DNA of 44,979 nucleotides from Oscillospiraceae bacterium. GTDB lineage: Bacteria > Bacillota > Clostridia > Oscillospirales > Oscillospiraceae. Each line of letters begins with the position of its first letter. Within the stretch, counting starts at the first letter, position 1. Shown here piece after piece: positions 18,055 through 37,671 of the stretch. The notes below the pieces were generated by a model, which was given only the letters and a program-made list of their open reading frames with translations, made no database searches and was not told the DNA's origin. The stretch covers positions 1-44,979 of the forward strand of contig JAFZDL010000055.1 in assembly GCA_017561205.1 (NCBI GenBank), given 5' to 3'. The position numbers and the translations under genes were made by a program.

Positions 18055-18146
18055 TGGCGGAACGAGCTGGACTCGAACCAGCACACCGAAATCCATCGGT
18101 GAACGGAGTAGCAATCCGCTGCAGTACCTGTTATGCTTACCGTTCC
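18055..18146 (-). tRNA. Phage-borne tRNA-Ser (anticodon GCT)
   Basis: A 92-base type II tRNA on the minus strand. The acceptor stem GGAACGG pairs with TCGTTCC (one G-U), the D stem is GCA/TGC, and the anticodon stem GCGGA/TCCGT has loop TTGCTAC (anticodon GCT). The long variable arm is CACCGA/TCGGTG. The T stem GCTGG/CCAGC has loop TTCGAGT, the discriminator is G and CCA is encoded. It lies between the late terminator and terS inside the prophage, so it is phage cargo, reading AGC/AGU codons. Confidence 0.93.
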
Positions 18147-33253: not shown

Positions 33254-33472
33254 TTAGCCTGTGGTTGTGATAGGTGCGTCCAGCTGGTCATCATCTTGAA
33301 GCAACTCATCGACAGTGCACTCTAAGATTTTTGCAATAGCAGGAAGCCGCTTTGCCGTAGGCATTGCCTTTCCGTGCTCCCAGTTGTGAACAGCAGTCTG
33401 GTCGACACCAAGCATTTTCGCAAGGTCGTTCTGACTTAAGCCAAGCTTCTTGCGTCTACTTGCAATTCCCAT
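33254..33472 (-). CDS. Cro-like XRE-family repressor
   Basis: 72 residues that are nearly all one helix-turn-helix domain: SRRKKLGLSQNDLAKMLGVDQTAVHNWEHGKAMPTAKRLPAIAKIL. It is the first gene leftward from the control region and opposes the CI-like gene, the usual position of Cro. It should turn down the lysogenic repressor and set early transcription. AGGAGG lies eight bases before the start codon. Confidence 0.92.
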   Translation of the reverse strand: MGIASRRKKLGLSQNDLAKMLGVDQTAVHNWEHGKAMPTAKRLPAIAKILECTVDELLQDDDQLDAPITTTG

Positions 33473-34724: not shown

Positions 34725-35666
34725 ATGTCCTACACTATACGCAAATTTGCACACTATGCTGTGAGATCTGTAGCCGCATTTTTGAGTTGGCTAGTATTGA
34801 CGGCGGTTTTAATGTGCATTCCTTCTTTTATAGAGGCTAGCGGTGATTCGGTTACGCTAACTTCTCCCATTCCTATATTGATACCGCTGGCTATCGCAGT
34901 AGGTGTTTTCTTCCTGATTAAGAAGCCGTTGAATAACAGCAACCACTTCTATAACCCGGACGCTTTTCTATCCCACACAGATTATAGAAGCACCCAAAGT
35001 AGCAGTGTTGAAACAGAACTTATGGAAATTGACCTTATGGAAGGTCTGGACTTTGAGTACTGGTGTGCCGATCTGCTAACCAGTCTGGGGTATACGAATG
35101 TTGAAGTTACAAGGGGAAGCGGTGATCAGGGCGTTGATGTGCTTGCTCAAAAAGATGGTATTAAATATGCCATTCAGTGCAAGTGCTATTCGTCCAACCT
35201 TGGAAATACTCCTGTGCAGGAGATCAACACCGGCAAAGTGATCTATCATTGCCATGTTGGCGTAGTAATGACTAACCGCTACTTCACAGAGGGAGCAAAG
35301 GAAGCTGCCGAAGCCACTGGTGTTCTCCTGTGGGATCGAGACTGGATTGCTGAGGGGTTGAAGGCTACCGGCAGAACCGACGGGAAGAGCAGCTGCGAAG
35401 TATCTACAGAATCCCCCTTAAATACTGACATACACTACAGTGAGGATAACAAGCTTTGCTGTGAGGCTGTAGATGCAATAATGACTTCTCGTAAAGCAAC
35501 TGTGGCTGTGATTCAGCGCAAGCTAAAAATTGGGTATGCTCAAGCTGCTAGACTTATGGATATGATAGAACAACGCGGCATTGTTGGCCCGTTTCAAGGC
35601 AGTACACCCAGAGAAATTCTTATAACGGATACTCAATGGGAGAATATGCGTACCCACTTCAAATAA
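34725..35666 (+). CDS. Membrane-anchored Mrr-type nuclease with FtsK-gamma-like winged helix
   Basis: 313 residues. Two hydrophobic segments (about 14-34 and 46-65) anchor it. From about 105 to 215 it carries the Mrr_cat PD-(D/E)XK core: FEYWCADLL, the G-S-G-D-Q-G-V-D segment (131-138) and QCK (151-153), so the probable catalytic residues are E111, D138, Q151 and K153. Residues about 245-302 (AVDAIMTSRKATVAVIQ, GYAQAARLMDMIEQRGIVG, then a PREILI strand) match the gamma winged helix of FtsK, which reads KOPS sequences near dif. The gene sits between the repressor/protease pair and the integrase, the usual slot for lysogenic conversion or exclusion genes. A DNA-entry defence at the membrane is a plausible inference. 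Confidence 0.85.
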   Translation: MSYTIRKFAHYAVRSVAAFLSWLVLTAVLMCIPSFIEASGDSVTLTSPIPILIPLAIAVGVFFLIKKPLNNSNHFYNPDAFLSHTDYRSTQSSSVETELMEIDLMEGLDFEYWCADLLTSLGYTNVEVTRGSGDQGVDVLAQKDGIKYAIQCKCYSSNLGNTPVQEINTGKVIYHCHVGVVMTNRYFTEGAKEAAEATGVLLWDRDWIAEGLKATGRTDGKSSCEVSTESPLNTDIHYSEDNKLCCEAVDAIMTSRKATVAVIQRKLKIGYAQAARLMDMIEQRGIVGPFQGSTPREILITDTQWENMRTHFK

Positions 35667-35788: not shown

Positions 35789-37384
35789 ATGCCGCCTATT
35801 CCATACAACACACTTTCCACTGAAGCACTGAGCGAGTACTTTCCGGTGGTAATATATGCCCGGTATTCCAGCCAAGGGCAGCGCGAGGAATCCATAGAGG
35901 GCCAGCTCCGGGAATGCAGGGCATTTGCAGAGCGGAACGGCTGGACAATCGTGGGTGAATACATTGACCGGGCACTGTCCGGCAAGACTGACAAGCGTGA
36001 CGATTTCCAGCGGATGATCAAGGACAGCGAGAAGGGCCACTTCCGCGGTGTCCTGATGTACACGTTGGACCGCTTTGCCCGGAACCGATATGATTCCGCA
36101 ATGTACAAGGCAAGACTGAAAAAGAACGGTGTCCGGGTGTTTTATGCCAAGCAGTCCATCCCTGATGGCCCGGAAGGTATTATTCTGGAATCCGTACTAG
36201 AGGGCTATGCAGAATACTACTCCGAAAATCTATCCAGAAATGTGAGGCGGGGAATGATGGAGAACGCATTGCAGTGCAAGACTACCGGTGGCCTCTGCCT
36301 TGGTTACCGGAAGGCAAAAGACGATACATGGGAGATAGAACCTGTCGGTGCAAAAGTGGTCCAAGAGATCTTCCAGCTCTATGCAGACGGCACCTCCGCC
36401 ACGCAGGTGATCGCCTATTGCAACGAAAAAGGTTATAAGACTGCACGAGGGAAAGCCTTCACCCGGAACAGCCTGCATACGATCCTGCGGAACAGAAAGT
36501 ATATCGGCATATATGAGTATGAGGATGTGTGCGTGGAGGGTGGCATACCGGCGATCATCAGCACAGAACTATTTGACCGGGTGCAGGCCCGGCTGAAGCA
36601 CAACTATTCCGCCAGAGCCAAAGCAAAGGCCACCACAGACTACCTGCTTACAACAAAGGTTTTCTGTGGTCACTGTGGATCTCCTATGATCGGTGAGAGC
36701 GGTACATCCCGGCATGGTACCACATATCACTATTACAAATGCGCTTGCCGCAAACGCAGTGCCAATGCCTGCCAGAAGAAAACAGAAAAGAAAGAGTGGC
36801 TAGAAGCCTTTGTGGTAAGGACTATTGTGGAGAAGGCTCTAACGGATGATAATATCGATGAGATATCAACCAATGCAGCTGCTCTCTATGAGAAGGAATG
36901 CGCCGACACACGGCTGCTGGTGAGCTTGGAGCAATCTTTGGGCGATACTACCACCCGGCTGAAGAATATTCTGGATCTGATGGAACAGGGCATTGCCACT
37001 GCAAGCACCAAGGACAGGCTGCTGGAGCTGGAGGAACGGAAGCAGGATCTGGAATGCAAGATTGACCGGGAGCGCAGAAAAAAGCCGACCCTGACTAAAG
37101 AACGCATTGCACATTGGTTGATGTCCTTCCGAGACGGTGATGTCAATGATCCGGAACACCAGCAGAGAGTAATCGACACACTGTTGAATTCAGTTTATAT
37201 CTATGATACGGATGGTGGCGGTCGACGATTTGTTTTCACATTCAATCTGTCCAAGAATCACACCGCCACACTGACCCTGTCCGACATTTCGGATATTGTG
37301 TGTTCCGGTGTACCAGAAAAGCAGATATCCCATTTGGGATATCTGCTTTTTTTGCTTACACGTCGAGGGACTCGAATAGTCTAA
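35789..37384 (+). CDS. Large serine integrase; last 22 codons are host DNA past attR
   Basis: 531 residues in the integrated form. The resolvase N-terminal domain has YARYSSQG with the catalytic Ser27 and GQLRECRAFAERNGW. DRFARN occurs near 92-97 and the recombinase domain runs through about residue 290. A zinc ribbon (FCGHCG, then CACRKR and NAC) with a coiled coil follows (about 360-430). AAGGAG lies six bases before the ATG. attR falls at codons about 506-509 (tcc ggt gta cca). Codons 510-531 (EKQISHLGYLLFLLTRRGTRIV in two parts) are templated by the host hairpin at 37318-37353. In the rebuilt attP the frame instead gives a 25-residue tail ending EDVG at a stop codon (2261-2263). The catalytic core is complete. 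Confidence 0.93.
   Translation: MPPIPYNTLSTEALSEYFPVVIYARYSSQGQREESIEGQLRECRAFAERNGWTIVGEYIDRALSGKTDKRDDFQRMIKDSEKGHFRGVLMYTLDRFARNRYDSAMYKARLKKNGVRVFYAKQSIPDGPEGIILESVLEGYAEYYSENLSRNVRRGMMENALQCKTTGGLCLGYRKAKDDTWEIEPVGAKVVQEIFQLYADGTSATQVIAYCNEKGYKTARGKAFTRNSLHTILRNRKYIGIYEYEDVCVEGGIPAIISTELFDRVQARLKHNYSARAKAKATTDYLLTTKVFCGHCGSPMIGESGTSRHGTTYHYYKCACRKRSANACQKKTEKKEWLEAFVVRTIVEKALTDDNIDEISTNAAALYEKECADTRLLVSLEQSLGDTTTRLKNILDLMEQGIATASTKDRLLELEERKQDLECKIDRERRKKPTLTKERIAHWLMSFRDGDVNDPEHQQRVIDTLLNSVYIYDTDGGGRRFVFTFNLSKNHTATLTLSDISDIVCSGVPEKQISHLGYLLFLLTRRGTRIV
37303..37315 (+). other. Putative attR (right attachment site) inside the integrase gene
   Basis: TTCCGGTGTACCA, matching the tRNA-Arg 3' end (TTCCGGCGTACCA at 2173-2185) in 12 of 13 bases. 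Left of it is phage DNA, right of it the host sequence that presumably followed tRNA-Arg. Confidence 0.75.
37318..37353 (+). terminator. Probable original tRNA-Arg terminator, repeat unit hairpin 1
   Basis: A perfect 14-bp stem (AAAGCAGATATCCC / GGGATATCTGCTTT) with loop ATTT, then TTTT and more. It lies three bases after the attR core, where it would have followed tRNA-Arg at once before integration. Its inner GATATCCC/GGGATATC is shared with the hairpin at 40469-40500, while the outer three base pairs differ in a compensated way. Confidence 0.85.
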
Positions 37385-37478
37385 ATGCAACGCGGATGAG
37401 CGTTGCTGCCGACGGCTCGACGGAGGCAAACCTTAATTTTCATTCCCTGTGGAAAATGAAAACGCAAACGAGTCCCTT
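37365..37478. repeat. Structured repeat element, copy 1
   Basis: About 114 bp. The outer stem is GAGGGACTCG / CGAGTCCCTT. Inside are a hairpin GCAACGC-GGATGA-GCGTTGC, a conserved CCGACGGCTCGACGG segment, and an AT-rich hairpin TTTTCATT / AATGAAAA. Copy 2 (40516-40631) has the same layout with paired changes in the first hairpin, which points to selection on folding, either as RNA or as single-stranded DNA. Confidence 0.7.
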
Positions 37479-37671
37479 CCGTTGTATCATTAAACAGATC
37501 TCTACTATCCACTATTATTTATTATTTGTAACACATCATTGTAACACCTACAATAGTGCCTTTCCTCGGCAGGTCATACAACTTGCATTTTACGTCTTCA
37601 TTTGATAAAATAATGGAAATATTTCCAGTCACAAAAAGGAATTTCCAAAGAATAGAAAGGTCAAAATTGCA
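37479..37671 (+). promoter_or_regulatory. Spacer upstream of yfhO with a promoter
   Basis: TTGCAT (37583-37588) and TAAAAT (37606-37611) with a 17-bp spacer form a good sigma-A promoter for the downstream gene. The rest of the spacer is AT-rich. TTGTATCATTAAACAG near 37482 resembles the sequence just before the second repeat (TTGTACCATTAAACAG near 40459). Confidence 0.65.

Follow-up and report, generated by a model that had tools for sequence, protein, structure and literature searches.

Integration of a tRNA-targeting prophage is predicted to exchange the C-terminal tail of its large serine integrase

Here we describe a prophage whose large serine integrase gene, judged from its DNA, has two states with two different C-termini, integration exchanging the end of the integrase as well as the hairpins that lie behind the integrase and tRNA genes. 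The phage attachment site (attP) probably extends across the end of the integrase gene, and the conserved phage-encoded tail is probably functional before integration and swapped out by crossover, most likely serving integration. Relatives indicate that the phenomenon is more than an oddity of one prophage.

The prophage, its integrase and the attachment site

The window, the whole stretch of DNA analysed here, is a contig of 44,979 bases (G000:C49) from a genome assembly that is 83% complete. Its prophage, which carries genes for a portal, a minor head protein, a terminase (weak match), a tape measure protein and a primase, spans the interval from a tRNA-Arg(acg) gene to a large serine integrase gene. 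The following features, all on the forward strand, are relevant to the argument.

2109-2185, +: tRNA-Arg(acg), the host target, whose 3' end is the attachment core (ARAGORN; Rfam RF00005)
2173-2185, +: attL core TTCCGGCGTACCA, the 3' end of tRNA-Arg, with one mismatch to the attR core
2186-2263, +: integrase tail left as an orphan in the prophage, 25 codons (NSANPNPVFFVKDCFGFVIEIEDVG) plus TAA at 2261-2263, from the reading frame and attP-form relatives
2194-2203, +: right attP arm AAATCCGAAC, 8 nt after CCA, an inverted repeat of the left arm with spacing conserved in relatives
2249-2279, +: phage terminator-like hairpin plus T run, spanning TAA 2261-2263 (fold z -7.15)
35789-37384, +: large serine integrase, whose integrated form has 531 aa (Pfam Resolvase, Recombinase, Zn_ribbon_recom)
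37287-37296, +: left attP arm TTTCGGATAT inside the integrase gene, 16 nt before CCA, with the same spacing in relatives
37303-37315, +: attR core TTCCGGTGTACCA, 13 nt, within the integrase gene by sequence match; codon 509 is CCA at 37313-37315
37316-37384, +: integrase tail that the lysogen draws from host DNA, 22 codons (EKQISHLGYLLFLLTRRGTRIV) plus TAA, from the reading frame and contiguity in genomes G028 and G001
37317-37356, +: host tRNA-Arg terminator, which the inserted prophage separates from the tRNA and places behind the integrase gene, from its fold and contiguity in G028 and G001

The integrase carries the Resolvase, Recombinase and zinc ribbon domains that define large serine integrases, with recognised Pfam domains reaching residue 346. 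Its domain content and fold are the same as those of the A118, SPbeta YokA, Bxb1 and phiC31 large serine integrases. For the relative L137, the top PDB fold matches are serine integrases. In a profile of 515 positions, the A118 structure 4kis matches positions 153-462, placing the tail beyond the matched part.

After codon 509, the 22 host codons read through the host tRNA-Arg terminator, a perfect 16-bp hairpin followed by a T run (37317-37350; fold z -7.6). The orphaned tail at the opposite prophage end comes into frame with the integrase only once attP is restored, that is, when codon 509 is joined to base 2186. The hairpin at 2249-2279 would then terminate the integrase mRNA in the excised phage, and tRNA-Arg transcription in the lysogen. 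A preliminary description of the window had given the same coordinates and codon counts (22 host and 25 phage codons), which proved correct on re-checking. Its argument that so tidy an open frame is unlikely by chance is weak: given an open arm, and at the base composition of the window, tails 12-33 codons long would arise by chance with a probability of about 0.5. As the open frame alone is weak evidence, the case rests on comparison with relatives.

The 13-nt cores of attL and attR differ at one position (C at 2179, T at 37309). This position is C in all tRNA-Arg copies matched by the pattern (9 of 19 loci scanned) and T at attR, which points to a crossover to the right of the mismatch, within GTACCA; T occurs there in the tRNA-Arg(ccg) genes of three relatives (L269-L271). 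The inverted repeat TTTCGGATAT/AAATCCGAAC is complete only across the proposed join, its halves being parted in the prophage, one at either end, as such a join predicts. The restored site is dyad-symmetric, with GTTCGGAT-like arms at fixed spacing around a short core. Among integrase relatives, a GTTCGGATTT-like motif stands 16 nt before the core CCA; in attP forms, the reverse complement of this motif follows CCA at a distance of 8 or 9 nt. On the host side, the joined flanks (117 nt, tRNA plus terminator) align contiguously to two genomes of the same genus, G028 (92%, query 1-114) and G001 (88%, query 1-115), which fits empty sites.

That the attR repeat arose by chance and the 3' end of the integrase gene is merely unusual, an artefact of assembly or boundary assignment, is scarcely credible. 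The incomplete assembly speaks for it, as does the failure to find the excised form: the exact joined attP of the window phage matches 0 stretches among the viral contigs, and only the attL place is present in its own genome assembly. Against an artefact stand the dyad arms, the contiguous sites in the two genomes of the same genus, dozens of relatives in both forms and the genome of phage Pioen.

Relatives that carry an intact attP

With the window integrase as the sole query, 2 viral loci and 1 genome locus were found; the others were reached through the arm pattern and alignment A1. Both arms around CCA occur in 88 viral stretches, and 71 pattern matches among the first 80 of these 88 loci lie directly behind a serine integrase match. 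In a similarity-based sample that is independent of the arm pattern (the best 80 of at least 529 confirmed viral loci), 35 of the 80 carry the right arm with at most 2 mismatches. Integrases at least 60% identical to that of the window are found at 20 of the 80, several of them near-identical copies. Among these 20, 17 tails are of the type N.N/NP..FF...FGF, and 16 loci have both arms by script and end in NP[NK]...FGF; L153, one of the 17, has a variant core and arm, yet the tail end NLNPQFFFVGHIFGFVLVVSRIG. The tails of L151 and L152 are unrelated, and that of L178 is cut off by the contig end. L137 is the closest full-length attP form among the similarity-sampled loci (69% identical); its tail NCANPNTFFFVKHCFGFVLQIEDIG is identical by eye to the tail predicted for the window at 18 of 25 residues.

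A DNA-only criterion (CCA core, few arm mismatches), which errs in both directions, classes 115 of 166 viral loci as attP forms, the 166 comprising all 88 arm-pattern loci plus the similarity-based loci, among which contigs recur. For example, L165 (tail PDGANWNAAAFL) is a doubtful inclusion, and L153, L160, L171, L173 and L187 are missed though their tails look attP-like. There are 75 distinct attP ends (L137 is excluded because its blast match began before the start codon) and 70 distinct tails. Counted from the core codon, the tails of the 75 ends are 12-33 aa long (mean 23.9, sd 4.4), mostly with 16-30 residues past the core, compared with 25 in the window. The classification into attP and integrated forms excluded loci whose integrase body contains a stop, and the nearest genome relative (L010/L215, 84-85%) was unusable for attP, its contig reaching only about 2.5 kb upstream of the integrase gene.

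As a separate observation, eight integrases of group A (L067, L090, L075, L060, L056, L064, L089 and L091) have a GGAGGT ribosome-binding-like site and no usual start codon, reading ATT/ACT and ACG/ATC where the related L053 has ATG.

Relatives in the integrated form

The integrated class comprises 37 of 156 loci with the core found, including L168, L169 and L185, which have attP-like tails and are probably attP forms. The preliminary description had named as counting against it that related integrases should all end before the attR position, and they do not: at 26 of 28 integrated-class loci examined (three of the 28 probably misclassified attP forms), the frame reads past the core codon. The integrase gene stops at the core codon in the other two, L012 and L045, and also in L010. 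At the 36 loci where the tail ends within the locus, integrated-form tails extend 0 to 115 residues past the core codon, many of them running through a hairpin and then T.

Several pairs of relatives share an integrase and part only after the core. L192 and L193, both integrated, are 100% identical over 495 aa and then end in tails whose lengths from the core codon are 27 and 5 residues; one integrase with different integrated tails indicates that the class can enter different sites or hosts. Likewise, L019 and L020, both integrated, are 98.4% identical over 485 aa and differ after the core, and L020 and L038 (95.2% over 290 aa) differ only there. Moreover, the integrases of phage Pioen (PP479940, attP form) and FP_Taranis (MG711467, a linear record with the integrase gene at one end) are 98.8% identical over 498 aa, their ends differing after the core, so that a single integrase occurs in named phages with either kind of end; L107 and L172 (91.5% over 213 aa) are another such pair.

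Left prophage ends give a complementary picture. The right arm adjoins CCA in 44 of 149 genomes, and the reversed control pattern occurs in none of the 149. A loose pattern finds a tRNA-3'-like sequence upstream at 23 of the 30 right-arm loci listed. An orphan NPN...FG tail is present at 20 of these 23, window included, and at 2 of the 7 listed loci lacking such an upstream sequence; the tRNA-linked sites without it are L262 (contig end), L279, and L280 (the last apparently frameshifted). In many of the searched genomes, members of the class are located at the 3' end of a tRNA gene.

The loci L257-L286 (e.g. L266, L271 and L283) include left ends of prophages that adjoin genes for tRNA-Val, -Arg, -Leu and -Ala. 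Their orphan tail DNA has AATCCGAAC...GTTCGGATT ends with T-rich sequence behind them, and the varying inner bases appear pairable by eye; on this visual impression, the tail DNA may replace the terminator lost by the tRNA.

Selection on the phage-encoded tail

To measure constraint, pN/pS was computed on the codons beyond the arm within clusters built from integrase bodies. Tail groups picked by amino-acid motif had been tried and were replaced by these clusters, since such groups are circular for pN/pS. The measurement covered the four main clusters (A, C, D and B; n=19, 17, 14 and 12) of a set that also holds 13 smaller clusters or single tails. In the integrase frame, tail pN/pS was 0.45, 0.51, 0.61 and 0.47 (bootstrap upper bounds 0.65, 0.72, 0.78 and 0.65), compared with 0.82-1.92 in the two other frames, with synonymous sites near saturation and a protein-level alignment of the tails that biases the comparison towards the integrase frame. 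The integrase body (last 200 codons; 18, 16, 12 and 12 of the cluster members) gave 0.35, 0.41, 0.44 and 0.50. These values support purifying selection on the tail as a protein; the modest codon-wise nucleotide identity within cluster A counts against it. Such selection on the phage-encoded end would imply a role when the integrase gene is read from attP. The claim of the preliminary description that integrated and excised integrases differ in their tails is strongly supported, attP-form relatives carrying the predicted tail and showing signs of selection on it.

We consider it unlikely that the swap is a passive by-product, in which attP resides in the integrase gene for co-inheritance, the downstream sequence is conserved only as DNA and the exchange is without effect. 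Prophages do exist despite unrelated integrated tails, and NPN follows from the arm motif regardless of any requirement of the protein. Furthermore, 68 of the 75 attP forms have a terminator-like hairpin close to the stop, which the hairpin overlaps in 38 of them; the figure for sequence with its single bases shuffled is 6%. The tail DNA of the tRNA-Val/Arg subfamily resembles a terminator hairpin and shows no frame preference past FGF (pS 0.59, pN 0.54). With the core-proximal NPN set by the DNA arm and FGF lying in a hairpin in one subfamily, conservation is partly at the DNA level. However, pN/pS is clearly below 1 in the integrase frame only, in four clusters and near body values, and positions 2186-2224 of the window are unstructured (fold z 0.5). 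The residues also outlast the DNA: the reading frame through the arm DNA differs between clusters B and A (KSEP versus NPN), yet most members of cluster B keep [YF][IV]FV..VFG, in some members the hydrophobic-G-hydrophobic residues persist where the TTCGGATTT word is lost (MIGIV and MLGIV in cluster B), and L153 and L160 have other arm DNA, yet a tail FFFV.H.FGFVL.

An AlphaFold model of the attP form of L137 places strands at 497-500 and 503-510 of the tail. The tail may thus form a beta-hairpin, at low model confidence (block means 45, 58 and 52, with the preceding stretch 471-495 below 50).

Less probable still is a stability switch, whereby the phage tail either marks the integrase for degradation or protects it, and integration alters the half-life of the integrase. 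Short hydrophobic [IVL]A[VIM] ends occur in 15 of 17 cluster C tails, and an ssrA-like tag sits on the repressor in integration-dependent immunity (available part of PMC9934374). Clusters A, B and D, however, share no such terminus, their conservation being internal, and host tails are unrelated to each other; apart from the cluster C ends, no common C-terminal tag was found across the tail clusters.

Proposed mechanism

Our preferred reading, that the conserved tail acts before integration and is removed by it, can be put as a series of steps. The attP site would span the final codons of a gene for a large serine integrase that targets tRNA genes. In the circular phage, this gene would encode the full-length enzyme with its conserved C-terminal tail, closed by the phage terminator. 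As the sequence shows, crossover in the shared GTACCA at the tRNA-Arg 3' end exchanges everything after codon 509, the tRNA gaining the phage tail DNA and terminator and the integrase gene gaining the host terminator and a host-encoded tail. The phage tail, as its selection as protein supports, would contribute to integrase function as long as the phage is not integrated, most likely promoting attP x attB integration or guarding the new lysogen against early excision. Integrated relatives have unrelated tails or none, and loss of the tail seems tolerated there; the integrase made by the prophage, without the phage tail, would excise the phage together with a recombination directionality factor (RDF). 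The swap may alter the stability, directionality or activity of the integrase.

A more far-reaching proposal, which as a whole is possible and rather doubtful, is that a widespread class of serine integrases, many of which target tRNA genes, uses the tail exchange as an inbuilt means of setting direction. The tailed enzyme would integrate and resist excision, integration would delete the tail so that an RDF could switch the enzyme to excision, and in some members the same DNA would serve as attP arm, replacement terminator for the tRNA and coding sequence of the tail.

Serine integrases are widely used genome-engineering tools, for which control of direction is a central question. Nature here supplies two enzyme forms that are the same up to the crossover, and the conserved tail belongs solely to the form that precedes integration. 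Integrase sequences of this class that come from lysogens end in host-encoded residues instead of the phage tail, a point to heed when cloning from prophages.

Relation to known systems

The principle is known from phage Mx8, and the serine integrase version would appear to be a new variation. In SSV-type archaeal viruses, integration partitions the integrase gene. SSV-type integrases resemble the present one in that the gene extends across attP, the available part of PMC4383910 naming the Mx8 and SSV integrases as doing so and limiting 'integrase' to tyrosine recombinases; they differ in that the recognised domains here (up to residue 346) stay intact. In Mx8, attP lies inside int, and the recombinant gene formed on integration has a new 3' end, a change that is reported to alter specificity without inactivation (available part of PMC6070905). 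An attP within the integrase coding sequence and a new int 3' end on integration are thus shared with Mx8 (and Mx9). The window enzyme, by contrast, is a large serine integrase, whereas Mx8 Int is implied to be a tyrosine recombinase (PMC4383910, as far as available); furthermore, the targets here are tRNA 3' ends, and selection on the tail is measurable across many phages. The location of class members at tRNA 3' ends contrasts with a statement in the available part of the 2014 paper PMC4383910 that serine integrases are not known to target tRNA genes.

The preliminary description had pointed to integration-dependent immunity (mycobacteriophage BPs group) as a parallel. The likeness holds insofar as attP lies in a coding gene and integration changes the C-terminus of a lysogeny protein, and it is looser than that to Mx8, where attP is inside int itself. 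In that system, the gene is that of the repressor, from which integration removes an ssrA-like tag (available part of PMC9934374), whereas here attP lies inside the integrase gene and no tag is evident; a repressor-like HTH gene is located elsewhere in the window, at 33254-33472. Titles and abstract openings in the open literature, subscription journals being mostly outside this scope, revealed no serine integrase tail exchange, which is no proof of absence.

Other features of the window

The prophage also contains a tRNA-Ser(gct) gene at 18055-18146 (-). Upstream of the integrase gene, a gene at 34725-35663 (+) encodes an Mrr-type restriction endonuclease domain fused to an FtsK gamma domain. 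Behind the attR terminator, a stretch of about 130 bp (37361-37489) carries an inverted copy of the tRNA T-arm (GGGACTCGAA) and a GC-rich middle, and ends with a direct tRNA 3'-like sequence (CGAGTCCCTTCCG). Its pattern has three matches in its own genome, recurring in the window from 40518 onward and near 8944 of contig G000:C72 (L290). The L290 copy is flanked by two tRNA 3'-end repeats, each followed, by eye, by a terminator-like hairpin, an arrangement that on such inspection resembles a small site-specific element.
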